Positions 24,732 through 48,091 of a DNA stretch of 64,000 nt are shown here, one piece after another (position 1 is the first letter of the stretch; every line of letters begins with the position of its first letter). Below the pieces are notes generated by a model. The model did not search any database. It was not told where the DNA came from and worked only from the letters and a program-made list of their open reading frames with translations. The DNA comes from Symbiotaphrina buchneri (lineage: Eukaryota > Ascomycota > Symbiotaphrinales > Symbiotaphrinaceae). The position numbers and the translations under genes are program-made. The DNA lies in NCBI GenBank assembly GCA_001599915.1, contig BCIG01000012.1:496001-560000 (forward strand), given 5' to 3'.

Positions 24732-27305
24732 GGCGATACCAGGTACTCCGCGGTCGTGTTGTCCTCCGGAATCCCCTCGCGGCAAGGACAGTCTGCAGCA
24801 TTGTCGCACATCAATCCTCGACCTTTTGACGAAGCCTACGAAGCCTACGACCCTTTTACGTACACCTCCGGGCAACGCCAGCGACCACAGCAGTACTCCT
24901 ACTCGCAAGCCCAACATCCATCTCGGCCCTCGAGCTCTTCTGACAGCCACCGCACCCTTCGAAGGACACCTCGACTTGAAGAACATCAAAGCGGGCATCG
25001 TCGGTCTGCATCAGCACATGTTCCTGTTGTGCATTTCGCGGAATCAGAACCCGTGCAACAGGGAGCTAGTGACCGACGTGGCGAGTCTTCAACTTCTCAA
25101 ACATCGACAAGGGCCCCTTCAGCCTTTCGAGAATCCCCGGTCACTCCTCGCGCCACTCGCATTTCGCGAAGCACCGCCTCTGCTATTCTATACGCCCTCG
25201 AGGAAGCAATTAGATCGCCATTCCCGTTTACACCGGACCTGATCGAGGAGAACGCTTCCATGTCAGACCTCCTTCGTGGGGGTCCATCAACTGCTGCTGG
25301 AGGGAATGGACGTACCAGTAACGGAGGCACCCGGACTGGCTCAGGCCCAACCCCTGTGTCCCAGAATGCTCCTGCTGGAGTGCGTGGCCCTAGAGATATA
25401 ATGCGGGACCGTCAGGCGCGCGAGGCACGACGTAAAACTGAAAGCGAGGCAAGGGAACGGGAGAAGTCCGAAGAGGAGCAACGAAGGATACAAGAAGAGC
25501 GGAGGCTGAGTGCAGAAAGGAGAGCTGGGTCTGCTGGCGTTGCCGGTGGCCCGGTTGGAGGAGTTGACCAACCGAGATATCGTTCTGCTGCTGGAAGCAC
25601 TTCTGTACCTGCCCCTACCGCAGGCGCTGTAGGAGGACCTGATTACGGGCGGGGAATTGAAAGGAGGCAAACAGAACCGACCTCTGGCGGTAACGCGGGA
25701 CGGACGGGGCAGACAGCTCCTCAACCATCAAGGATGGCTGCCAGTGGCGGAGCAGGTGGAAGTGCCGCACAATCAGCCGGTAGGACCCGTGGGCCGAGTG
25801 TTTCTCAGAGTCAACCAAGACCAGCAGCGCCGCCTGTGCAGCAACCACAGGGGCAATCATCGCAGACAAGGCAAACATCCGGAACCCAGCAGACCCCACC
25901 AGGACCTTCCACGACTGCTCAGGCGCCGCCCCAGGGTCCAGATACGAGCCAACAGAGGGGGACAACATCAACGTTCCCTCATGCATTTGAAAGATGGGAA
26001 ACATTATCCTCACACTGGGAAGGTCTAACATCGTACTGGATTCGTCGCTTGGAACAAAACAGCGACGAGGTACGCCGGGAACCTCTTGCGCAACAAATGT
26101 CGAGACAAATAACAGATCTCTCTGCTGCAGGCGCCAACTTGTTCCATGCTGTTGTCGAACTTCAACGACTCCGAGCATCCTCGGAGCGTAAGTTTCAGCG
26201 CTGGTTCTTTGAGACGCGACAAGAACAGGAACGAGCGCACGAAGTCCAGGGAGAGCTGGAACGGGCGCTACGCGCTGAACGACAAGCTAGAGCAGATGAT
26301 GCTGCCAGGGTCGAGGCGCTTGTAAAGGAAAAGGAGAAGGCCGAGAAACGCCTGCAAGAGATGGTACGCGAGTTACAAATTTCGAAGGAGGAAGCTCGAA
26401 GAGCATGGGAGGAATTAGGAAGGCGAGAGCAGGAGGAGAGGGAGAGAACTGCAGCTCTGAGAGATGGAACTGCCATCAATATTGGAGGCGTCCAAGTCCT
26501 CCCGGTCACGCATGGTGCCAGCAGGCATACTAGTACCAATCGACCCCCTACTCGTGAAGGACCATATGGTGCTGGGCCGGAGCCCGGCATGATGAGCGGT
26601 CAAAAAGGTGGTCCTGTTGGGGGCGTCAGCTCGGAATATCCAGGCTACGAGCCTGAAGGTGCCTCGCCGACGGGCAGCGATCTTTTTGTCGAGGGAGGTG
26701 GCCGAGGTGCTCTGCATCATGAGCCTGATGTGCCGCAATTACCTACAGCCAGTTACCCCACATACTCTCAAGGCAGCCCTCAACGCCCGACTACCAGTGC
26801 AGGGCCTGGTTCGCACTACTCTCAAGCCCCGGCTGGAAGGGGTTCTACCGCGCCACCTTTCTATCAGCACCAAGGTACCTCAGTCCAACCGGGCCTGGAA
26901 CAACACACGCCGGTAGAAGAAGGCTCTTATGTGGGCTCTGAACCCCTTAGCGAAGAAGAATACGAGATTGATCCGGCCGGCAACTTTCGCCTCGACCAAG
27001 AGGGACATAGAATTGTTTACCGTCGCGGGCCCCGGTCGAATGACAGCGACGAGGAAGACGTCAGCGCCGAGATTGCTCGGGAGCGCGCATATGCTGCTCA
27101 GTATGGTTCTGGGGCATACGGACAGGGTCCCAGCACCAGAGCTCCTCAGAGCAGTGGCTACTCGACTCAGGATCCCGCTGAGTACGACCGGCCAGGATAT
27201 ACTTCTGGCGCATCTTACGACTTCCCACGGCATCATCATCCGACCAGGCTGAGTGACGTGCCAGAGGAGGATGAGATGAGTAGGACAAGTGCAGGCCAGC
27301 GCTGA
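24732..27305 (+). CDS. Hypothetical coiled-coil protein; 5' exon not resolved
   Basis: A single long frame of about 857 codons, open from 24732 to the stop at 27303-27305. It has no ATG in its first 176 codons (first in-frame ATG at 25260), although the sequence from the start already looks protein-like. I therefore expect an upstream exon joined at the TAG acceptor ending 24731 or the CAG acceptor ending 24742. Counting from 24756, residues 1-400 are Ser/Gln/Gly/Pro-rich and disordered, with a charged helical patch at 215-260. A conserved-looking domain starts near 407 (FPHAFERWETLSSHWEGLT) and leads into a long charged coiled coil (about 470-565, heptad-like, Glu/Arg-rich). The rest is disordered. 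There are no membrane segments. Function unknown; the coiled coil suggests a structural or scaffold role. Confidence 0.75.
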   Translation, partial: GDTRYSAVVLSSGIPSRQGQSAALSHINPRPFDEAYEAYDPFTYTSGQRQRPQQYSYSQAQHPSRPSSSSDSHRTLRRTPRLEEHQSGHRRSASAHVPVVHFAESEPVQQGASDRRGESSTSQTSTRAPSAFRESPVTPRATRISRSTASAILYALEEAIRSPFPFTPDLIEENASMSDLLRGGPSTAAGGNGRTSNGGTRTGSGPTPVSQNAPAGVRGPRDIMRDRQAREARRKTESEAREREKSEEEQRRIQEERRLSAERRAGSAGVAGGPVGGVDQPRYRSAAGSTSVPAPTAGAVGGPDYGRGIERRQTEPTSGGNAGRTGQTAPQPSRMAASGGAGGSAAQSAGRTRGPSVSQSQPRPAAPPVQQPQGQSSQTRQTSGTQQTPPGPSTTAQAPPQGPDTSQQRGTTSTFPHAFERWETLSSHWEGLTSYWIRRLEQNSDEVRREPLAQQMSRQITDLSAAGANLFHAVVELQRLRASSERKFQRWFFETRQEQERAHEVQGELERALRAERQARADDAARVEALVKEKEKAEKRLQEMVRELQISKEEARRAWEELGRREQEERERTAALRDGTAINIGGVQVLPVTHGASRHTSTNRPPTREGPYGAGPEPGMMSGQKGGPVGGVSSEYPGYEPEGASPTGSDLFVEGGGRGALHHEPDVPQLPTASYPTYSQGSPQRPTTSAGPGSHYSQAPAGRGSTAPPFYQHQGTSVQPGLEQHTPVEEGSYVGSEPLSEEEYEIDPAGNFRLDQEGHRIVYRRGPRSNDSDEEDVSAEIARERAYAAQYGSGAYGQGPSTRAPQSSGYSTQDPAEYDRPGYTSGASYDFPRHHHPTRLSDVPEEDEMSRTSAGQR

Positions 27306-32724: not shown

Positions 32725-32886
32725 TGTCCGAGGCAGGATTCGAACCTGCGACCTTTTCACCCTGGCCCCAGCGCAGAAGGGACACGCTCAAGAGATATAC
32801 CTAGGAAAGGAAAGGAAATAATGATACCCGGGGCCACCTTATACACGGTAGGGGGGGTGACGCTCTGACCACTGAGCCACTCGGAC
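32725..32886 (-). tRNA. tRNA gene with a long intron; isotype unresolved
   Basis: Reading the minus strand from 32886, the acceptor stem GTCCGAG pairs with CTCGGAC. The D arm is GCTC/GAGC with loop AGTGGTCA. The T arm is a perfect 5-bp GCAGG/CCTGC with loop TTCGAAT, followed by discriminator A at 32725. The anticodon stem TCACC (32860-32856) pairs with GGTGA just before the variable region, but about 85 extra bases separate the halves, so an intron is inferred. The anticodon loop is abnormal. Seven C in a row follow TCA, leaving no U at position 33, so CCC (Gly) or CCT (Arg) readings are only guesses. The variable region also seems to be 7 nt. It could be a degenerate copy. A- and B-box sequences (TGGCTCAGTGG, GGTTCGAATCC) look usable by RNA polymerase III. 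Confidence 0.7.
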
Positions 32887-33942: not shown

Positions 33943-35985
33943 TTAACCCAAGCTCCTCTGAAGCCATCTTCTTACAGACATCCATGGTCCCCAGCTCTGA
34001 CTCTCTTCCATGCACAGTCCATGGTCCAAGTGACAGCTCCTAATCCTTGTGAGGGAGCGTTGGTCCGATATTTCCTCCTCACTGAACCAACAGCCATGAA
34101 ATCCATAAGGCACGCGCTGCGGCAAATGCACGCGACCTACAACATTAGCCATTGTGAGAGCATCAATAATCCAGAGCTCGCTTTTGGCCTCTAGGGTGGC
34201 TTCGCCATTTTCGTCAAGCTGAGCCTCATTGAAAGCATAGGCTAAAAGCCATCCGTCATCTTCCGCGACACCGTCCTGCCTCGGGACGAATCGACATTCC
34301 CCTGTATACCAGCCGGGTGGCATCTGGAACACTTTAATAGGGTCATCTGGGTCGGTCGAATTTGATACCTCTGCAATGGAACGTGTATCCACGCAGCCTG
34401 TCACCGGGGATGGAGGCGAACGAGTGCCGCGGGCTATGAGTGTATCGACATCAAACTTCGCGAGGGTATCAGTCTTGGCAGTTGCGTCGAGAGCGGCACC
34501 TGCTGGCGCCCCAGATGCAGAGCAACAATACACGTACCGCACCGCTGACATCGAACGGTCATCCCGGATGGTGGGAAATTCTACATTAAGCGCAGAAAGA
34601 GCATATTGCTGGCTGATTACCCCATCCACCTTGGCAGAAGTAAGTTCGAACTGATAGAAGTACAATCTGCACTGCTCTTCTTCTTCATCGGTAATATGCT
34701 TAATCTGCGGTACAGTAATATTACCTGCATGATAGAGAATGGTAGCCGGAGTGAGACGACATGCGAGCATGTTCACCAGCTTTCTTTCCTTCTCGCCGGA
34801 ACCAATCGTAACATCCCAGGTATTAGCGGTGTGAAATATGTAGCATGATTTCGTCTCGAACCACTGGATCTCTTCCGGATGGTATCTCGGGAATATACCA
34901 AACCTGGATGTGCCCTGATGGTCGTAGAACAGGGTAGGCTTCTTTGCAAGCATGTTGAGCGGAGTCAAGGAAAGAGGAAGGTCCATAATGACAGTATAGG
35001 AGCGTGATACACCGAAATCGTGCATCATCTTTGGCGATGAGACACCTGGTACAGCTGAATTGACAATACGCGGCGTACTTCGGATAGTCCGGTCAGCCGT
35101 TGGCGGAATGATCGAGTACTCGACGTAAGGAGGTGCAACGCTCGGATGAAACAGGATCAGTTCCTTAGTAATGGGGTCTTTTCGAGGCTGATGTTATTAG
35201 ACATGGTCAGCGGTCAGTATGAAATGCACTCACATGGCCAGTAGTCCATTCCTTCATGAAGCTCAATAAGCCTGTCCCACCGAAGCCCTGTATGTCATTG
35301 CTCTCTATCCGTGATCCACCTTCCGCTCTTATGCCATTGAACCATCCCACAGTTTCCAGACCGGGAAGCGCCACACGGATCGGTGGCCCACTTTCGCAGG
35401 TAGCCAAGGCTCTCCCATCATGATATAAGATAGCGGTGTTTGCAACGCTGATTCTCTTGATGGCCTGTCTCGAGCCTGGCAGGTATGATATGATGATCAG
35501 GAGTATAGTCCGGAGGGTTTCAGCGAGGACACTTAACGCAGTACTGTTGGGATCCACCAACTTCGCAATGCTGGTCATGATTGGTCTTCTGATCGCGGGA
35601 GACGTAGCTGCCGAGAGGTAAATATCTGTCAAGACATATTGATTGACAAATTCAGCCTGGACTTGTCCACGATCTCTGGGCAGACGACGGAACCAGACAC
35701 CGGTAAGCATGCCATCGCCGTCAAACCAATGCGCTTCCCTGTTAGCGTCATCGCCGATCACTGGATTGCTACCATTCCGCACATATTGACCTCCAATGAG
35801 CTCGTCTGGAATATAGCCCTCGTAGTTGCAGGGGTTCAGAGGCTGTACATGGCGGACGGGGGCAAAGTTCCCAGAGAGATATCTGTTATGTCCTTGTCAG
35901 CTTTCCCGTCTGCACGGGGTCCAGAGGCCACATACGGATGCTGTGATCTTGTTGCTCCCTGCTTCTTCGCAATCGTCGAAGGCAT
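33943..35985 (-). CDS. carX: Retinal-forming carotenoid oxygenase (CarX type)
   Basis: A member of the carotenoid cleavage oxygenase/RPE65 family: non-haem Fe(II) enzymes. The fungal CarX type splits beta-carotene centrally into two retinal molecules. The model is complement(33943-35187, 35234-35882, 35936-35985), 647 aa, starting MPSTIAKKQGATRSQ and splicing into PYLSGNFAPV, which matches the family N-terminus in phase. The four iron-binding histidines are visible in WTTGHP (His233), MMHDF (His289), IFHTANTW (His352) and YGFHGCWF (His597). Long blocks such as KRISVANTAILYHDGRALAT and MDLPLSLTPLN recall Fusarium CarX more than the torulene-cleaving CarT. The gene faces away from carRA across a shared 1.1-kb intergenic region. 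It supplies the chromophore for the opsin encoded at 44381. Confidence 0.92.
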
Positions 35986-37083
35986 TGGAGGCAGAGCGGC
36001 GCGTGTACATCCCTAGCTGGAGTTCTTAAGACGTGGATGATAAGCCACTGTCTCGTTGCGGGAGGCTTGTAATTAGGTATCATAGCAATCACGGTCCTGG
36101 CAGGAAGCGAAGCCAATGGGCATGGTCGCTGCAGCAGTGAATGAATCTGCTCGAAAGTGAAATTTTACAACTCATTATTTACCTGGCCCAGGATGCAGGA
36201 CTGTCCGTGTTAGCTCTCAACAATATTGGTCAAAGGAGGAACGAAGATATCGGACTGCGGCAGGACCATGTGTAGATAGCTTAAAGTGATAGCAAGTCCT
36301 ACAGGGTACGGATTTACGGTCCTCTGATCAATAGTTTGCTTTTGCGTGGGGAGGGAGGTGTGCTCCTTCCCCCCATTGTGACATCGACATGGAAAGAGCG
36401 TTGCAGAACCGGTACCTGCAACGGCCGGAAGATGAGAGCCGAGCCGGTGAAACAATTGTTTGCTCTGTTTGTTTATCTGTACACAATGTTTCTCGTGTTT
36501 GCTTGGAACTGGCGGTCACGCTAAAATGGCGGGCGATTGGCTTCCCGCATCTACCGTTAGCGCATGTGCGCCGTGCATCTCTCGGCTCCTGCTTCCCCTT
36601 GGCTTCTATCTTCTGACCAATCACCGTCTTGGAGACGGTTGTCATCCGAAGCCAACAAAAAGATCAAAAAGACAAGTACGTCTAGGGGATATCGAAACGT
36701 CATGACTCCCCTCTCGGACATATCGAAAGTGCCTATTCTGGCGCAGAATCTTAATGACTAACGGTCTAATCTGCTTTGATGGCTTCGTCTCGACTCCACT
36801 GCCTCTAATGCCGGCCTGCCCGTGCCCTTCCGGCTTTGCCCCTGATTCACCAACGGAATGTTAGTTGCGCCGACTCATCATAATAAATCATGCATAGAAG
36901 GTGCGACTGCTTCACTTTGCCTTTTCCTTGTTCATGCGCGAATCTGCGCCCCACAGCTTCTGTAGCTCCTGTGAATGCCAGATGCCCTTCGCACAGCCTC
37001 AGCTCCTCTCAAACCTCTCTGCTACTGCGTCGACCACCCACTGAATTACTACACATGCTTCTAAAGCGAAGCTGCTACTAACA
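35986..37083. promoter_or_regulatory. Shared divergent promoter region of carX and carRA
   Basis: 1,098 bp separate the start codons of carX (-) and carRA (+), and no other gene is seen here, so it must hold both promoters. In other ascomycetes these genes are induced by light through the White Collar complex. Several GATC/CGAT motifs occur (for example near 36237, 36326, 36533 and 36662), but at a frequency I cannot separate from chance. Confidence 0.55.
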
Positions 37084-39162
37084 ATGGGCTTCGACTATGC
37101 GCTGGTGTACGAGTCTTTTGTTCCCTGCCTGTTATGTACAACTGTGACTGACTAGAGCTTGTCCACGGAAGGCACCTCAAATATACAATCCCGCCTGCTG
37201 TCGCGCTGACATATTTATACCGGCCTCTCCTTATGCGTCTGGACCTCTACAAGCTCGTGTTTCTTATCACAGTAGGTCGTCCTCTGCAGCGTGCAGGCAG
37301 CAATTGTTGACCATAAATCAAGATCGCGGTCGTGGCCACGACCCCATGGGACTCATACCTGGTCCGTACCAGGATCTGGACATACCCACCCTCCGCAGTA
37401 CTTGGACCCACCATCTTCTCCATTCCAGTAGAAGAGGTGTCCTTCTTTGTGATCCAGACGTACAATACTTCTTTGTTGTACCTTCTACTGAGCAAGCCTA
37501 CCTTTCATCCCGCCTACCTTTGTGCAGACCGCAGGCTTGGCCATGACAATGAGAAGTTCAACCAATTATTCCTCCAAAAGCGTATTGGCCAAGCTATCTT
37601 TGGTTCCGTGTTTGCCTTGGGGACATGGCTTGTTTGGAAGGGTGGCCCCGGGCTGTACCTAGGCTTGATATTGATCTGGGCTACTCCAGTCATCCTCTTC
37701 TTGTGGTAAGCCTGGACGTCTCTTCGGCGAAGATTAACAAAGGCTAATTCCACCAGGACTATGTCGTATCAGTTCATCATAGGCTTATCCTGGACGAACA
37801 CTGTTCTTCCAATTGCCCTGCCCACCATCTACCTTTGGATTGTTGATACTCTAGCTTTGAAAAAGGGCACGTGGGTTATTGGTTCCGGTACTAAGCTCGG
37901 GAGTCATTTGTGGGACGGTCTTGAGGTTGAGTTAGTAGACTGCATGCAGATGTGTGACCAGGGAGCTGATACTCAACAGAGAAGCGGTATTCTTCTTTAT
38001 CTCAAACACAATCATAGTTTTGGGACTCATTACTTGCGACTATAACCTGGCCGTGTTGCATACATTCGTGGATATCTCACCTGAGGTCCCTTCCTGGCCA
38101 TCACCTGCCTTGCTTGCGCGAGCATTAATGGTGCCCGAATCCGCGTTTGACAGCGAAAGATTGAGCGGTATATGTCAAGCCGTGGAAAGGCTCAAAGGGA
38201 AAAGTCGCAGCTTTTATCTCGCAAGTGGAGTGTTTGAAGGTCGGCTCAGGATCGACCTTATTCTTCTGTAACTCTCCCCGATCACGTCATTTATGTCTTT
38301 AAAATGGTACTAACTCGAATTCTCTAGGTATGCTTTCTGCAGGGTTGCGGATGACTTGGTGGATAATGCTTCTACACCATCCGAAGCTCGAGGCTGGCTA
38401 CACAAACTTCGAGACTTCCTGAACGTCACCTATACCAGTCCGTTGAAAAAGTCCCCTGAGCTTAGGAAATGTGTACACCAACAATTCCCTCCCAGGACCC
38501 GGTCTGCTCTTCTTTTGCTTCCTACGTCATATCTCTCAAGCGCCCCATTTTTCGACCTTCTTCGAGGGTTCGAGACAGACTTGAATTTCTTCGAGCGAGG
38601 CAGCAGCACTTCGACAAAAACTTGGCCTATCCATGACGAAGAGGACCTGGAGCAGTACGCCTCCAGAGTTGCCAGCACAGTTGCTGAGCTCTGCATTGAG
38701 CTCGTCTATTATCATACTCATTGTCAAACGCCCGTTAAAGACCGGGAGAGGATTCTAGCAGCTGGGAGGCGCATGGGTCTTACACTACAGTATATTAACA
38801 TATCGCGCGATATTGCAGTCGACGCAAGCATTGGACGCGTCTACCTGCCCACAGTATGGCTTCAAGAAGAAGGTCTCCAGCCGCAGGACGTTCTGAAACG
38901 ACCCGAGGGACCAGGCATCGAGAGATTACGCACGAAGTTGCTCGGTAAAGCAATGCAGATATACAAAGAGTCTAAAGGTGCAATCGAAGAGTTGCCGGCC
39001 GAAGCCCGGGGCCCTATGAGAGTTGCGATCGAGAGCTACGTCGAAATTGGGAGGGTGCTTGGCGAGAAGAACTATAAGGTCAAGGCTGGCAAGGCCACAG
39101 TACCAAAGTTGAGGAGGTTGTTAGTGGCCTGGAAGGCAGTGAGTGGTCCTCAGCAACCTTAA
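37084..39162 (+). CDS. carRA: Bifunctional lycopene cyclase/phytoene synthase (AL-2/CarRA type)
   Basis: The N-terminal domain cyclises lycopene ends to make beta-carotene, and the C-terminal domain condenses two GGPP to phytoene. Exons are 37084-37106, 37172-37271, 37323-37705, 37757-37930, 37980-38267 and 38328-39162, giving 600 aa (AL-2 of Neurospora is about the same). The N-terminus reads [15 protein letters not shown] after splicing. The cyclase half has membrane helices and the [15 protein letters not shown] motif. The synthase half starts near residue 260 and carries [20 protein letters not shown], the first Asp-rich motif DDLVDN and the second, [15 protein letters not shown]. All expected motifs are intact. 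This is the entry enzyme of the cluster; it is paired with carX upstream and carB downstream. Confidence 0.95.
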
Positions 39163-39456
39163 CAAACTGGTACATGAAGCTTCGTCGTACCAAGATCGAA
39201 AGATAGATTACAATAGAAGTAGGTGGTACCAAAGCTTGCCTGGGTGTTCGCCCAAGACTCGTGTCACGATACCTCAAGCAGGCGGGGCCGGTAGCAGGGG
39301 ATCACCCCGCACTCGTATTCTGGCCCCACAATGTAGCCACCCCAGACTGCTCATAAGCAATCTAGAAAATCCGGCTTTTGGACTGCCCTCACCATCCTAC
39401 ATTTTACCAATTGCGAGTTCATCCCTGACACCATCTTTGACCATCCTTCGCTCGAA

Positions 39457-40254
39457 ATGACTAGCAGCTATTCGCCTCCACAGCTTGCTCTTCCCAAAGA
39501 AGATGATTTTTGGGACTCCGTTCCGGTCCAAATACAACAAGCAGTCGCTAAGGTGGTTCCCACCGACCGAATCGACGAAATGGTTCAGCAGGGCGTTGGA
39601 ACGCTTTCTGTAAAAGAAAAGTACGGGGCCTTCGAAACAACACTCCAGGATATGCTCGATGCCAGACGCAAATCGTTGGGTCCTCAGCATATAGACACTC
39701 TTGCAGTCCTCCACCCTCTGGCTATGGTCCAGACGGAGCTTGGAGAATCCGCCCTCGCGGAAGAGAATTATCGACTGCTTTTGGAAGTGTATGAAAGGCT
39801 AGACGGCTCGGACGCTTCGTGGGCGGTCATGAATAACCTTGCTCTGGTGCTCAACGAGCAGGGCAAATATGCAGAGTCTGAGGCGATCCTTAGGCGGCTA
39901 CAGCCAGTTCTAGCCAAGGGAATGGGGGAAGATAGCCCACAGGCTCTGGGATGTTTGAGGAAGCTGATGGAAGCCCTGGAAGGGCAGGGAAGGCATGCGG
40001 AGGCCAGGGAATTACTGATGCAAGGACTGGAGAAGACGAACAGGATGGGTGGAGAGCATCAATCGGAGGAGAGGGAAGCAATGCAGGAGATGGCTACTCG
40101 TATTGGCGGGGACACACCCCGTCAAGGGTCTGTTGTTGCTCATAGGCACCCCGGTCTTAAAGGTCAGCGCTCCCTTCGGGGGATTCGGATCTCAAGAGGC
40201 TGGCCTTTTCACCGGTTTTTGCTATTCTTCACACAGCACTGCTCGTCGGCTTAG
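39457..40254 (+). CDS. Small TPR (kinesin-light-chain-like) protein inside the carotenoid cluster
   Basis: Single exon of 265 aa beginning MTSSYSPPQLALPKEDDFWD. Residues 45-205 form about four tetratricopeptide-like helical repeats of the kinesin-light-chain/NB-ARC-associated type (ARRKSLGPQHIDTLAVLHPL, AEENYRLLLEVYERL, MNNLALVLNEQGKYAESEAI, EGQGRHAEARELL). There is no signal peptide or catalytic motif; a short hydrophobic stretch ends the protein. The C-terminal about 40 residues are low-confidence: a frame change near 40130 would give a different tail (a downstream intron or alternative splice is possible). TPR domains bind proteins, so a partner role is inferred. Its position between carRA and carB, same strand, is the only clue to function. 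I do not recall a TPR gene here in the Fusarium car cluster. Confidence 0.8.
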   Translation: MTSSYSPPQLALPKEDDFWDSVPVQIQQAVAKVVPTDRIDEMVQQGVGTLSVKEKYGAFETTLQDMLDARRKSLGPQHIDTLAVLHPLAMVQTELGESALAEENYRLLLEVYERLDGSDASWAVMNNLALVLNEQGKYAESEAILRRLQPVLAKGMGEDSPQALGCLRKLMEALEGQGRHAEARELLMQGLEKTNRMGGEHQSEEREAMQEMATRIGGDTPRQGSVVAHRHPGLKGQRSLRGIRISRGWPFHRFLLFFTQHCSSA

Positions 40255-41102
40255 CTTTATAATCACACTATTATCATGATTCGTCAGTCAATCCCTGGAG
40301 GTAAGGTGGGGCCTGAAAGAGCGGAGTTTTCGACTATTGGTGCTTCTCTGCTGGAAGGGGAAAATAGTTGACTGCCACATAAGGTAGCTAATGAGCAATT
40401 GGCAGAGAACGCATCCAGGCAACAGCGCTGCGTCCTCCACTTCTAGACCAATCCAACAGGGCCACGATGCTCTCGCTTTTGTTGTAGAAATGCGAGGAAT
40501 TTGATTGTTCCGATTTCGGAGATAACTGTGTAAAACGGGCAGGCTTTACATTGTGTATACCCCCAGTATCTCAAGCCCGGGTCTTCCAACAACAGTTGTA
40601 CGCTCAGATATACGGATACGCCATTATATTTATTGTTTGATGCGTATACTGATCTGGAAACTCACAGTATGCTGGGCAGGTGGCAGAGGGTTCTATTCCC
40701 TGCTATGTGCGCCCGACTAGAGGGCAGTGCAAGTCCTCTCCCGATGGTCTCAGGTTAGGATTAACCTTTTACTTCTGACCATCAAAATCAAAAGCAAATA
40801 TCTCGCACATTTTTGCGCGATAGGGAAGGTCTGAAGCTTTATCTTATCTTAGTGGACAGAGCTTGCAGGGTTCCAACCAGGCCAGCGGGGAAGCTAAGAA
40901 ATACCTTAATTTAGCGTATTGCAAGTACAGATCGCGCTAAACAGAGGTTAATATTGGACGTCATGACTTGTGGCAGCATTTCACTTGTCAAAGAAGGTGA
41001 GACCCTGTAGGAATCGAGCCGAGGCACTCTACTTCAGATAAACTCAGTCGTACAACAACAAGAGGACATCATGAGGCAAATATCCTTTCTTTCCCACGCG
41101 CA
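40255..41102. other. Intergenic, carB promoter region
   Basis: 849 bp between the TPR gene and carB on the same strand. It should hold the TPR 3'UTR and carB promoter. I see no coding or RNA feature. Confidence 0.45.
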
Positions 41103-43042
41103 ATGGCCCACCAAGGCGGCCAGAAAACGGCCATCGTTGTTGGTAAGGATTCTCCCTTCAAGATCGATATTGCGTATTTTTGCACGTACGATCCTCTAAC
41201 TTTGAAACATAGGCGCCGGTGCTGGCGGGGTGACGACAGCAGCTCGGCTTGCAAAGGCAGGCTTCAGCGTTACAGTCTACGAGAAGAATGGATTCACCGG
41301 CGGTCGATGTTCCCTCATCCATTACGATGGCTACGTAGGCACCCAGCTGCCGCTGTTCCAGATACTACCATGCTCACTATCTGTCCAGCGTTTTGACCAA
41401 GGGCCTTCCCTTCTGCTTCTCCCTCCGCTATTTCAAGAAGCCTTCCACGACCTAGGAACCAGTTTGGAAGCGGAAGGTGTCAAGCTCATGAAATGTGAAC
41501 CCAACTACAGCATGTGGTTCGGCGACGGGGAGTCGTTCGAGCTGTCAACTGATCTGGCACGAATGAAGAAGGAAGTTGAAAAGTGGGAGGGAAAGGATGG
41601 TTTCGAAAGATACCTGCAGTTCCTGCAAGAGGCCCATGTGCATTATGAAGCCAGCGTCACACACGTGCTGGGTAAGAATTTCACCTCCTTCGTTTCCATG
41701 GCGAGGCCGGCCTTCATGCGCTTCCTGATGAAGCTGCATCCCTTCGAGTCAATCTACAGACGGGTCTCGCAATACTTTTGGACGGAGAGACTGCGGAGGG
41801 TCTTCACTTTCGGGAGCATGTACATGGGAATGAGCCCCTTTGACGCCCCGGGAACGTATAGTCTCCTCCAATACACAGAGCTAGCCGAGGGAATCTGGTA
41901 TCCAGAAGGTGGTTTCCATAAGGTGCGTCTTCAGCTGATGATATTTAGGTGGACATTGCTGATTTCACTAGATTATTGATGCCTTGGTCAAGCTTGGTCA
42001 GCGATTAGGTGTTAAATATCATCTCAATACCTCCGTCAGACAAGTGCTCCTCAGCTCAGACCAGACTACAGCAACCGGCATTGTTCTGGATGATGGCTCT
42101 ACGAAGACAGCTGATGTAGTCGTCATCAATGCGGACCTAGTATATGCCTACAACAACCTCCTGCCGCCTTCTTCGATGGGGCGCTCACTTCGAAAACGCC
42201 CTGCCTCCTGTAGTAGCATCTCCTTCTACTGGGCCATGGACCGAAAGGTTACAGAGTTGAGCACGCATAACATCTTTCTGGCCGACGAATACCGAGAATC
42301 GTTTGACTCCATATTCCGCGACCAGCAAATGCCTGAACATCCTTCATTCTACGTCAATGTTCCCAGTCGCGTTGACTCGACTGCAGCCCCAACGGGCAAA
42401 GACTCCATTGTAGTACTGGTCCCGGTTGGGCATATACTCGATCCAGAAGAGGGCAAAGGGCTCAATCCCTCTTCACCACAAGACTGGGCGGCTATGGTCG
42501 AGCGTGCTAGGTCCACAGTATTCGAGACTATTGAGGCTCGCACGGGAGCTAAAGGGTTGCGTTCTGCCGTGGCTCATGAAATTGTCAACACCCCGCAAAC
42601 ATGGAAGACGACTTTCAACCTGGACAAAGGTGCCATCCTGGGGCTGAGCCACTCTTTCTTCAATGTTTTGAGCTTCCGTCCCCGGACGGGTCACCCAAAG
42701 ATCAAGAAGCTACATTTCGTTGGCGCTAGCACACATCCAGGAACTGGCGTCCCAATATGTTTAGCTGGCGGCAAGCTCACCAGCGAGCAGATATTGGAAG
42801 ACCTGGGTATGGACAAACCCTGGCAAACTACCGCGAGTACACGGCGTGGCTTAGGTTCCATGTGCGAAGGGTGGATCAGAGGGGAGCTTGACGATCAGGG
42901 AAAGGGGAAAATGGCTAGACGAGAGATTGACCGCTTACAGATCCCGCCCCTGGTGGGGATGTGGCACATGGTCTTCTTGCTCGTTGTTTTGGTTTCGCTC
43001 ACCCGGTACTTTCAGGTTCTCGACTTGGTCGTCAGGAGGTAG
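41103..43042 (+). CDS. carB: Phytoene desaturase (CarB/AL-1 type)
   Basis: An FAD-dependent membrane-associated desaturase that converts phytoene stepwise to lycopene and, in fungi, to 3,4-didehydrolycopene. Exons are 41103-41142, 41213-41334, 41389-41922 and 41972-43042, giving 588 aa, a normal length. The FAD-binding Rossmann motif GAGAGGVTTAARLAKAG appears at about residue 14 after the first splice and leads to VYEKNGFTGGRCS. The 54-nt second intron lies in frame with no stop, but removing it joins HYDGY to RFDQGPSLLLLP as the family requires. The C-terminal dinucleotide-binding block is FVGASTHPGTGVPICLAGGK. A hydrophobic tail (MVFLLVVLVSLTRYFQVLDL) ends the protein, as in other fungal desaturases. 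Confidence 0.95.
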
Positions 43043-44380
43043 CAGATCGAATCTCGTATCGCTCCTGGTCACCGTGACAACTACTGGTTAGCAGTGCTTC
43101 ACATCTGCGGATGCTAAAGCAAGATCATGTAGCAATGATTAGCCTGTTCTTGCTCTTTCGACAACGTCCCATTCGTCGCGAAGAGCACCGTGCGGTTTTT
43201 AGAGTACTTGCGTTCTAGCGTAATGCTTTGACCGGAAGGACGTTCCGTGCTTGTATCACAGTATCAATAAAATTTCTTGTTTTCCGAAGTGCTTCGTTAC
43301 AAGGCACCCGTCGTTGCGTGCGACGATCCTCATCCCTTTGGGTCGCACAAGCTTTCGGGCCGTTATGTGCCATTGGGCAGTCGGGTCGGGAACTTAAAGT
43401 GCTAGTGCAATCTGGACCCGAGGCTTAATTCTTGACAGTTTTCACTTCACGACTGCCATTGTGTTGAAAGAATAACTCGAAATCTTTGGGTCATGGCGCG
43501 ACCAATGACTGCACAATTGCAATTTACTGGTCCAGCAGACCGGAGGTACCTTTCGACGATGACCGGTATCCCGGCCAGCACATACATCAGATGCAGTCTC
43601 AACAAAATCGCCGTCGCCGGTGCGATTAACCGCCTAAGGAGCCCTGTTATGCTGTGCTACGTGAATTTTCTCCTTGGACTCTTGGGGGCGGGATGCTTTG
43701 TCCACAGCTGCTTCTCGCAAGCTCAATCCTGCGTTGAGCCAGAGGACGTGATTGTCCTGGTGTCACTAGTAGCTCAAGGCAAACCTGGCTGACCGTGTAA
43801 TATCAAAATGCCAAATCAGACCATAGGGAAATGATGGGAGCGTGTTTGTGGGGCCGTGCGTTGTTCACCGGAGCTTGACTGTTCCAAGACCTGTCAATGC
43901 AAAGATGTGGTATCCATTATTCAACTGTAATTGCAAAGGTGCCTTGATATCGGGCTGACAGTAAGAGTATGCCCAGCTTAGGACAGCAAGCTTCGAACAC
44001 GGCAGGAAAGTACAATATCTTCCGCGTGTGGGCCGGACAACACGACGCCTGCATCATTAACTCAGCATTCACTGGCCACAACATTCGGTCGTGCCTTCCT
44101 AACCTGCATATGTCACTTGACGCGCTTCTGACGTTTCTGTTTGGTGGCCGTGGGTAGCCCAAGCCGTGGACTATTTCTCTCACACCTGACTTGCTTCCTT
44201 CTTCCTCCCTTCTCTTTCCTCTCCCACACCGTTTCCCACAACTGCTTTCCCCCATCTTCCTGTGACGCCGTTCAACACCCGTTGATCAGCTTACTTCAAC
44301 CACAGAAGGTTTCAAGTTCTTACTTCCTTCATATTTTCCACACCGATCGCTTATTGTATCATCTACAATACGCGTTCGAG
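43043..44380. other. Intergenic, opsin promoter region
   Basis: 1.34 kb between carB and the opsin gene on the same strand. A 99-codon frame at 43493-43792 has no recognisable motif. The last 200 bases are C/T-rich, as is common just upstream of highly expressed fungal genes. Confidence 0.4.
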
Positions 44381-45456
44381 ATGGCGGGTGGTAATAAAGC
44401 AACCAACGTTAACCCTAACACGGTTAACGGCAAGCATGTTGATATTGCCATTACTTCTCACGGCTCTGACTGGCTTTGGGCCGTCTGCGCTGTCATGGGT
44501 GCCACTGCTCTCATCATCATGGGCATGAGCTTCACCGTTCCTCGCAACCGTCGCCTGTTCCACTACATCACTGCTGCGATCAACTTCGTCGCTTGTATCG
44601 CCTACTTCACCATGGCTTCCAACCTCGGCTGGACTCCCATCGACGTCGAGTTTGCACGCGGCGGCAAGGTTTCTGGCGTCAATCGTGAGATCTTCTATGT
44701 CCGTTACATCGACTGGTAAGTGTACGCACATCTCACGTCTCTGCAAAAGCTGATTCTGAACAGGTTTATCACTACCCCGCTGCTCTTGCTGGACCTGCTC
44801 TTGACTGCAACTCTCCCTTGGCCTACTATTCTTTGGGTCATCTTCTGGGACATCGTCATGATCGTCACGGGTCTTGTGGGTGCACTCGTCAGAACGACCT
44901 ATAAATGGGGTACGTAACATTGTTCTTGTATTACGCACACCGCTCACGTCGGCTAGGTTTCTACACGTTTGGCTGTATCGCTCTGTTCGTGGTTGCATAC
45001 AACCTTCTGTGGACGGCTCGCAAACATGCTGGTCCCCTTGGGTCCGATGTCTACCGCTGCTACAACATGTGCGGTGCCTGGCTTGTCTTCATCTGGTTCC
45101 TCTATCCAATTGCGTGGGGTGTCTGTGAAGGAGGCAATGTCATTACATCCGACTCCGAAGCTGTCTTCTATGGCATCCTTGATATCTGCTCCAAGCCAAT
45201 CTTCAGCTTGCTCCTTCTTTTCGGCCATCGTGGAATTGATCCAGACCGCCTGGGTATTCGCATCCGCGACTACGAAGATCCCATTCCCGCATGGAACCAC
45301 AACGTCGACGGCCGTTATGGTGACAAGGGCGTGACGAACGGACACAACCACGTCAACGGTATCCATGACGGTCCCACGGAGGGTCTCATGCAGCCAACGA
45401 CCGCCGGCATCCCTGTCAACACCATGGCCGATGCTTACCGGGCCCAACCCGTCTAA
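44381..45456 (+). CDS. carO: Microbial-type (type I) fungal rhodopsin, CarO/Leptosphaeria-rhodopsin-like
   Basis: A seven-helix retinal protein of the plasma membrane. Exons are 44381-44715, 44764-44909 and 44957-45456, giving 326 aa. The Schiff-base lysine is in helix G (LDICSKP, Lys240). Helix C reads RYIDWFITTPLLLLDLLL: Asp111 stands at the bacteriorhodopsin Asp85 (proton acceptor) site and Asp122 at the Asp96 (donor) site, as in pumping Leptosphaeria rhodopsin. The hydrophilic C-terminal tail (about 75 residues) contains HGHN/NGHNHVNGI, a His/Asn-rich patch. Starting at ATG 44381 gives the usual short extracellular N-terminus with a glycosylation-like NPNT. Retinal would come from carX in the same cluster. 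Pump function is inferred from the residues, not shown. Confidence 0.95.
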
Positions 45457-46062: not shown

Positions 46063-46647
46063 TCAGCTCCCAGCTTGCTCGCCATCTACCACATCATAAT
46101 GTGCATGTATCCCCCATTTTTGGAGCTCCTCTTTTGCCAGGTTCTCCCAGCGTTCAATGAGTTCCTTTTTCACCGTAACTTCTCCCTGGCCTTCACCCTC
46201 CTCGACCTGGACAAACAACTTCCTGATATCCAGTTCCAGCCTGGCCTCAGCAAGCAGTCTCTTCACCCTCTGTCCTTCCATGATCAGCGCCTCCTCCCTG
46301 TCCTCTGCCGTGCCGCTGCCTAGCAATGCAGCCATCAGGCCTTCCAGAGCCCCGAAGACCCTGCCCACTCGTAGCCCAATCTCCGCTCCCTCGGCGTACC
46401 CTTCGTCGAACCCTTCCTGGAGAAACTGCTCCTTTGCCACACTCACGCCCTCTCGATAGCCATTGGTGACATGAATAGAGCGTAGGCGTGCTACGTCGGA
46501 AACTTCATTTTGTGGTCTGGAGTATGCGGGCGCGGCCGCACCGCCTAGGATTTGCGCGTCTGAGTCTGGCGGAGACGCTGAGAAGATATCCGTCAGATCA
46601 TTTGGAGGCGTGGATGGCGGAGTCTCCGGCTGAGTGTATGGAGGCAT
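46063..46647 (-). CDS. YAE1: Yae1-family protein (Fe-S target adaptor)
   Basis: Yae1 with Lto1 links the cytosolic iron-sulfur assembly machinery to Rli1/ABCE1, the ribosome-recycling ATPase. This is a single-exon frame of 194 aa. Its signature is the glycine-spaced 'deca-GX3' helix, visible at about residues 62-100: GYREGVSVAKEQFLQEGFDE followed by GYAEGAEIGLRVGRVFG, with Gly every four residues. The N-terminal 50 residues are Pro/Ser-rich and disordered; the C-terminal part is helical and charged. The ATG at 46647 is the first in frame. It lies back-to-back with CAB2 (start codons 268 bp apart), so they share a short promoter region. Confidence 0.85.
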   Translation of the reverse strand: MPPYTQPETPPSTPPNDLTDIFSASPPDSDAQILGGAAAPAYSRPQNEVSDVARLRSIHVTNGYREGVSVAKEQFLQEGFDEGYAEGAEIGLRVGRVFGALEGLMAALLGSGTAEDREEALIMEGQRVKRLLAEARLELDIRKLFVQVEEGEGQGEVTVKKELIERWENLAKEELQKWGIHAHYDVVDGEQAGS

Positions 46648-46915
46648 CCCTTGCGACTATGACTTCGACGTTGGGGCGCCGAGGTCCGGGGATGCGGAGG
46701 TCGGATAGGGGGGTTTAGGATTTGCGGAGGAAAAAGTTCGAGGGATGGGATGTTCGCGGTGGAACTGGGCATGGGCTTGACGCAGGAAATTGGGGTCTAC
46801 AGAGATTGCGCTTCTGCCTAGAACATCAGCAAAACGTGTCAATTGTATTATTGAAGCTTCATTGCGTCTCTATCGCCCACAGTTAAGCAATTGAAAGCGT
46901 CTACCTTCTTCTACT

Positions 46916-48091
46916 ATGTCCGCCGCTCCCGAAACTCAGAGCTCCAAGGCGGGGCAGTCGGCGCCGGAGCTCGCGGAGAGCTCGTACTTCACCAGCGAAC
47001 CACCCCCGGCCCATCTCGACAAGCATAAAGCCTTGACGGCCGAATTCATATCCTTCCACCTCCAGACCGGCCGGCGAGTAGTCCTTGTAACCTCCGGGGG
47101 CACAACGGTGCCGCTGGAGAACCAGACGGTGCGCTTCATCGACAACTTCAGCGCGGGCACACGGGGCGCGACGTCGGCGGAATATTTCCTCGAAGCGGGC
47201 TATGCGGTTATCTTCTTGCACCGGCAGTTCTCGCTGCTGCCGTACTCGCGGCATTACTCCCATAGCACCAATTGCTTCTTGGATTTTATGCAGGAGGACG
47301 ACGAGGGGCGGGTAGTTGTGAGCGATGAATATCAACCGCACATGGTGTCTGTCCTGCGAGAGTACCACGCCGCCAAGCGGGATGATCTGCTGTTGTTGCT
47401 ACCCTTCACGACAGTCACCGAGTATCTGTGGGAGCTGAGAGAAATCGCCATGGAGATGTCGAGGGTGGATTCAAAGGGCTTGTTTTACCTCGCGGCGGCG
47501 GTATCCGACTTCTTCGTGCCCAAGGATCGGATGGTGGAGCATAAGATTCAGTCTTCCAATGAGATTGAAGACCAGATGGCGCATGGCGAGGGGCCTAATG
47601 GCGGCATCATGCCTGCTGCTCACACAGAAGGGAAGAGGCTAGTTGTAGATCTGGACCCAGTGCCTAAGTTCCTGAAGCGTCTGGTGGAAGGCTGGGCTCC
47701 TCAGGGCATGATAGTGAGCTTCAAGTTGGAGACTGATCCTTCGATCTTGATCAAAAAGGCGGAGCAGGCGCTCCATCGTTACTCCCATCACCTAGTTATC
47801 GGGAATCTTCTATCTACGCGCAAGTGGGAAGTCGTATTTGTCATGCCTAACGCGCCGCACAAGTGGATCAGAGTTCCGAAAAATCGGCGTACGAAGAGTC
47901 TACATGGCAATGAGCTCGAAGTGGGCAGAGCTGAGCCTGGCACGAATGATGCAGATGGGAATGTCATAGGGAGTGGGCCATTGGAAATCGAGTCGCTCAT
48001 CGTACCCGAAGTTCAGAAAATGCATACCGACTTGATCGAAAAGGCACGAAACAAAGATGCCTCAGCCCTGAATGGCATGAGGGGCGGCTGA
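46916..48091 (+). CDS. CAB2: Phosphopantothenate-cysteine ligase (PPCS)
   Basis: It joins 4'-phosphopantothenate and cysteine in coenzyme A biosynthesis; cytosolic. One exon, 391 aa, from ATG 46916. The DFP/CoaB fold is recognised by VLVTSGGTTVPLE, the RFIDNFSAGTRGA motif (substrate and nucleotide loop), FYLAAAVSDFFVP, VSFKLETD and the later NLLSTRK. All are in the order seen in eukaryotic PPCS, which lacks the CoaC decarboxylase half found in bacterial fusions. The length is slightly above human PPCS (about 311 aa) and near yeast Cab2 (about 365). The stop at 48089-48091 lies 17 bp from the stop of the convergent gene. Confidence 0.93.
   Translation: MSAAPETQSSKAGQSAPELAESSYFTSEPPPAHLDKHKALTAEFISFHLQTGRRVVLVTSGGTTVPLENQTVRFIDNFSAGTRGATSAEYFLEAGYAVIFLHRQFSLLPYSRHYSHSTNCFLDFMQEDDEGRVVVSDEYQPHMVSVLREYHAAKRDDLLLLLPFTTVTEYLWELREIAMEMSRVDSKGLFYLAAAVSDFFVPKDRMVEHKIQSSNEIEDQMAHGEGPNGGIMPAAHTEGKRLVVDLDPVPKFLKRLVEGWAPQGMIVSFKLETDPSILIKKAEQALHRYSHHLVIGNLLSTRKWEVVFVMPNAPHKWIRVPKNRRTKSLHGNELEVGRAEPGTNDADGNVIGSGPLEIESLIVPEVQKMHTDLIEKARNKDASALNGMRGG

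Follow-up and report, generated by a model that had tools for sequence, protein, structure and literature searches.

A probable further copy of the fungal retinal-rhodopsin (car) gene cluster in Symbiotaphrina buchneri, with a TPR reading frame between carRA and carB

In Fusarium fujikuroi, the genes for retinal formation are clustered with a rhodopsin gene, with carX divergent from carRA (text passages of PMC5715946), and the locus tags FFUJ_11801-11804 correspond to carX, carRA, carB, and the opsin gene, in that order (PMC5561558, likewise in part). Text passages on other fungi describe similar groupings, including the black yeast Wangiella (Exophiala) dermatitidis (a four-gene cluster, HMPREF1120_02861-02864, encoding CarO, CarB, CarRA, and CarX; PMC4059230), Knufia petricola (linked phs1-phd1-cao1-ops2; PMC11580375, PMC10512386, PMC7745021), Cryomyces antarcticus (four linked genes, phs1 and phd1 having a terminator region in common; PMC11580375), and Botrytis cinerea (bcphs1-bcphd1-bccao1-bop2, with a cluster layout equal to that of Fusarium according to a figure legend; PMC3886904). 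A four-gene cluster is also given for Sclerotinia and others, a single predicted cluster of Zymoseptoria tritici (cluster 34; PMC5561558) includes an orthologue of each of the four, and the Corynespora cluster contains carX and carO (PMC5274520). In most fungi phs1 and phd1, which correspond to carRA and carB, are co-oriented (PMC11580375). The passages available describe the cluster as highly conserved, occurring in orders of the Dothideomycetes and Eurotiomycetes, in all families of the Helotiales, and in many species of Fusarium (PMC6941272), and in one set of 11 species, 8 have carO in the car cluster (PMC5796164). The car cluster is nevertheless not invariant among fungi (e.g., the locus of Trichophyton rubrum comprises three of these genes and includes an inversion, with the opsin gene lying elsewhere; PMC4059230).

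The window analysed here is a stretch of 64,000 nucleotides from Symbiotaphrina buchneri, located on one contig (C12) of an assembly of 23.4 Mb in 82 contigs; all positions given are those of the window. The region at 33943-45456 contains four intact genes, namely carX, carRA, carB, and a type I opsin gene (Table 1), and is very probably another instance of the retinal-rhodopsin cluster that is widespread in the Pezizomycotina, with orthology to the known car clusters proposed from family membership, residues, and gene order. The gene models were made by eye from the translations and the sequence, with the choice of splice sites guided by residues known from the relatives in Neurospora and Fusarium, and were afterwards checked by script. 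All 12 introns (five in carRA, three in carB, and two each in carX and the opsin gene) begin with GT, end with AG, measure 46-70 bases, and leave the frame open, and in the spliced models the stop codons of carX and of the opsin gene coincide exactly with the two limits of the region. The possibility of broken genes was ruled out, as all four car genes splice cleanly. When the models are compared with the published order, the four genes are linked and carX is divergent from carRA, and the adjacency of carRA, carB, carX, and opsin genes claimed in the first-pass annotation of this DNA is upheld by the agreement of spliced models and family matches.

Table 1. Positions of the car genes, the divergent intergenic region, and the additional reading frame within the window.
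Feature	Position	Strand	Description
carX, carotenoid oxygenase	33943..35985	-	3 exons, 647 aa; RPE65 match, four iron His
Divergent carX-carRA region	35986..37083	.	1098 bp; model coordinates
carRA, bifunctional lycopene cyclase/phytoene synthase	37084..39162	+	6 exons, 600 aa
TPR reading frame	39457..40254	+	single exon, 265 aa; TPR_12 1.3e-17
carB, phytoene desaturase	41103..43042	+	4 exons, 588 aa; crtI_fam match
Type I opsin	44381..45456	+	3 exons, 326 aa; Bac_rhodopsin match, D111, D122, K240

Each of the four proteins carries the domains and catalytic residues that characterize its family. The product of carX (exons at 35985-35936, 35882-35234, and 35187-33943) belongs to the RPE65 family (Pfam, 1.9e-109) and keeps the four iron-binding histidines (H233, H289, H352, and H597), each aligned to a histidine of the solved dioxygenase 9luz. 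Among solved structures, the closest in sequence is that of a carotenoid 9,10-dioxygenase; by analogy with CarX, the S. buchneri enzyme would cleave beta-carotene symmetrically, giving retinal and not another apocarotenal. The promoters of both carX and carRA presumably lie within the region that separates the two genes. CarRA has the architecture of CarRA/AL-2, in which an N-terminal lycopene cyclase is fused to a phytoene synthase with two Asp-rich motifs (here DDLVD at 331-335 and D484-IAV-D488). The synthase part matches the Pfam family SQS_PSY (2.1e-59), and the cyclase part matches the NCBIfam lycopene cyclase domain TIGR03462 in two stretches (2.4e-35, over the cut-off), with the Pfam cyclase domain PF18916 remaining under its cut-off (22.5 versus 27 bits). 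CarB combines membership of the CrtI family with the FAD-binding GxGxxG of CarB/AL-1, as seen in the NCBIfam match to crtI_fam (5.3e-128, over the cut-off), the Pfam matches to flavin oxidoreductase families, and the motif GAGAGG at 14-19; one of the comparisons made with carB spans the first 516 of its 588 residues. The NCBIfam scan took carRA, carB, and the TPR protein as its input.

The opsin matches Bac_rhodopsin (Pfam, 2.3e-40) and contains, in helix G, the Schiff-base lysine K240 within LDICSK. Alignment to 7bmh, which is taken here to be the Leptosphaeria rhodopsin, shows that the helix C carboxylates D111 and D122 are retained. From what is known of bacteriorhodopsin, D111 is presumed to be the proton acceptor, D122 the donor, and K240 the Schiff-base lysine, and the opsin accordingly holds the residues of a CarO-like pump (a helix G lysine together with acceptor and donor carboxylates in helix C). 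All of the catalytic residues listed in the first-pass annotation (the four histidines of carX, the Asp-rich motifs of carRA, the FAD motif of carB, and the lysine of the opsin) were thus located. Judging from the relatives of these proteins, CarRA would convert two molecules of geranylgeranyl diphosphate to phytoene, CarB would desaturate the phytoene, CarRA would later close the beta-rings, and CarX would cleave the resulting beta-carotene to retinal. The opsin would then bind retinal at K240 and most likely pump protons outward on green light.

A six-frame search of the 23.4 Mb genome found at least three carotenoid-oxygenase loci (7 match rows), at least two type I opsin loci (3 match rows), and at least four places matching the squalene/phytoene-synthase family. 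Since there are few of each genome-wide, the presence of one oxygenase, one opsin, and one synthase within 11.5 kb indicates a grouping beyond chance. Polyprenyl synthases gave 5 match rows at three loci (on contigs C4, C8, and C9), none of them on the contig of the window. The proposal that the cluster encodes every step needed to make and use the pigment therefore stands from geranylgeranyl diphosphate onward and fails for the precursor step. Beside carRA, members of the squalene/phytoene-synthase family occur in at least three more places (on C21, C22, and C2). For the carotenoid-oxygenase locus on C14, a 141-residue piece is close to the carotenoid oxygenase 1 structure 5u8x (2.7e-63), presumably Neurospora CAO-1; for that on C1, a 299-residue piece is far from the solved enzymes (best 6vcf, 1.7e-21), and the protein presumably resembles CarT. 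In Fusarium, the carotenoid genes beyond the retinal ones are likewise unlinked (text passages of PMC5715946).

Regulation by light was approached through a motif scan of six stretches, in which GATCGA/TCGATC (presumably the White Collar type motif), GATC, GATA, CCAAT, and WGATAR were counted and compared with 500 first-order resamplings for each stretch. Overall, the intergenic motif counts contained nothing above chance. GATCGA/TCGATC was seen 0 times between carX and carRA against 0.47 expected, i.e., with no enrichment, and the lowest of the 30 motif values (WGATAR in the carX-carRA gap, p 0.042) is at the level expected by chance for 30 tests. The listing of paired motifs in the same scan is a loose one that has no control. 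Light induction of the cluster genes is expected by analogy with Fusarium and Botrytis, the cluster genes of the latter being described as light-induced (text passages of PMC3886904). Co-regulation of the four genes in relatives is not uniform, as seen in the portions of text and tables available: in W. dermatitidis under radiation, carB and carRA are clearly up and the opsin and carX change little (PMC4059230, Table 2), and in F. fujikuroi on plants, carB is up, carRA is hardly changed, and carX is down (PMC5796164).

The role of the opsin and the main product of the pathway can each be read in more than one way. Going by its residues, the cluster opsin is probably of the CarO kind; since it keeps the two carboxylates of a pump as well as the retinal-binding lysine, it is more likely to be a light-driven pump of the CarO type than purely a sensor. 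A sensor that binds retinal and signals through a partner protein, with no pumping, is an unlikely reading. It would be consistent with the presumptive site for an unknown transducer described in CarO-like rhodopsins (text passages of PMC5796164), and with the lower similarity of the cluster opsin to 7bmh (36% identity over 232 positions) than that of the opsin on C22 (46% over 165 positions and 63% over 38), although these values come from different stretches of unequal length. However, D111 and D122, both of which are needed for pumping, are retained in the cluster opsin, and CarO itself pumps (PMC5796164, in part). The C22 gene is a second type I opsin, in which the two pump carboxylates and the lysine for retinal are likewise present, and it is nearer to 7bmh than the cluster opsin. 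Two rhodopsins are thus present in this genome as in Fusarium, which has CarO and a NOP-1-like one (PMC5796164, in part), the assignment of the two opsins here to these subtypes being tentative. As for the product, the pathway may serve mainly to make pigment (torulene, a neurosporaxanthin-like compound, or torularhodin), with retinal as a side branch; this reading is compatible with the locus being a car cluster and is a serious possibility, somewhat short of an even chance. In Fusarium, the pathway leads mainly to neurosporaxanthin, and beta-carotene and retinal form a minor branch (text passages of PMC5715946), and the third carotenoid-oxygenase locus, on C1, would suit such a pathway if it is CarT-like. 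Against this, the CarT identity of that locus is tentative, and the neighbouring carX and opsin genes indicate retinal as at least one product.

The first-pass annotation also noted an extra gene in the cluster, and the 265-codon frame between carRA and carB is indeed the sole departure seen from the known cluster. Its product consists of kinesin-light-chain-like repeats with significant homology to TPR proteins (in addition to the Pfam match in Table 1, the solved structure 6fv0 at 2.6e-17), and in NCBIfam it matches the TPR part of FxSxx_TPR with 58 bits, the cut-off being 300. The codon score of the frame is 0.069 bits/codon for codons 1-130 and 0.025 for codons 131-200, close to the 0.026-0.058 of the four car genes, which are somewhat flattered by a training set of 17 open frames that includes parts of carX, carRA, and carB. 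The last quarter (codons 201-265) has no positive signal at -0.019 bits/codon, a value taken over only 65 codons; as controls, scores of -0.08 to -0.09 were obtained for wrong frames on the same strand and of -0.015 to -0.074 for the antisense. The frame looks like a genuine gene, either truncated or ending in an odd tail, and the most likely explanation is that an unrelated gene, or a fragment of one, landed in the carRA-carB gap. A recent duplication was rejected as its source, the best other of the three genome candidates scored having 23% identity (E 7.3e-4), as was carriage by an element with flanking repeats, since no direct or inverted ungapped repeats of at least 16 bases occur in 38800-41500. 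That the TPR gene instead belongs functionally to the cluster as its fifth gene, sharing the regulation of the others and acting in carotenoid or rhodopsin biology, is very improbable. Its position on the same strand between carRA and carB, the scores of its first 200 codons, and its TPR homology all fit such a role, but the tail has no positive codon score, TPR_12 domains are frequent in this genome (24 match rows, 2 of them from the TPR gene itself), and the text passages compared here on published clusters do not mention a TPR gene. No observation made here links the frame to the pathway. It is more improbable still, to the point of being barely credible, that the TPR protein is a lineage-specific, co-regulated adaptor, gained between carRA and carB, that would convert the pump into a signalling complex by docking at the opsin's presumptive transducer site. 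The frame would matter only if it proved common to relatives and were shown to act with the opsin.

Several features were observed around the cluster. To its left, a tRNA gene with a long intron lies on the reverse strand at 32725-32886 (162 bases in total; Rfam tRNA, 48.6 bits, E 2.4e-07), which ARAGORN, run with the bacterial code, did not report. Further left, an open frame of 857 codons from stop to stop (24732-27302, forward strand) has no Pfam match at 1e-4; it is one of 5 such frames among the 16 that were scanned in the window. The right-hand neighbours at 46066-48088 are housekeeping-like, encoding a Yae1_N-domain protein on the reverse strand and a DFP-domain protein on the forward strand, the latter presumably of the phosphopantothenate-cysteine ligase kind.

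In the Fusarium car cluster, carO is assumed to have the same orientation as the opsin gene here. The gene order of the locus had been thought unusual, a view that has to be given up: carX divergent from carRA, followed by carB and the opsin gene, is the order of F. fujikuroi, and the mention of a related cluster in Fusarium in the first-pass annotation is confirmed by the same four genes in the same order (text passages of PMC5715946 and PMC5561558). The two loci differ in that the F. fujikuroi tags are consecutive, with no annotated gene between carRA and carB, where S. buchneri has the TPR frame. The same four genes in the same order, again under consecutive tags and with no annotated gene between carRA and carB, are found in W. 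dermatitidis (PMC4059230, in part). In Zymoseptoria, the carX orthologue has the protein accession EGP82655, out of series with the other three (EGP82649-82651), so that its position may differ (PMC5561558, in part). The text passages compared here on Knufia and Botrytis contain no TPR gene. More generally, the text passages on the cluster located by term give no mention of a TPR gene, and the word "tetratricopeptide" is absent from the 20 papers searched for it. Knufia petricola has the same four linked genes as S. buchneri, with phs1 and phd1 in the same orientation (PMC11580375, in part). The type and order of the cluster are already known, and the single departure seen is the small extra TPR gene; the locus extends the already wide distribution of the retinal-rhodopsin cluster by one genome, with the cluster intact and the pump residues retained.
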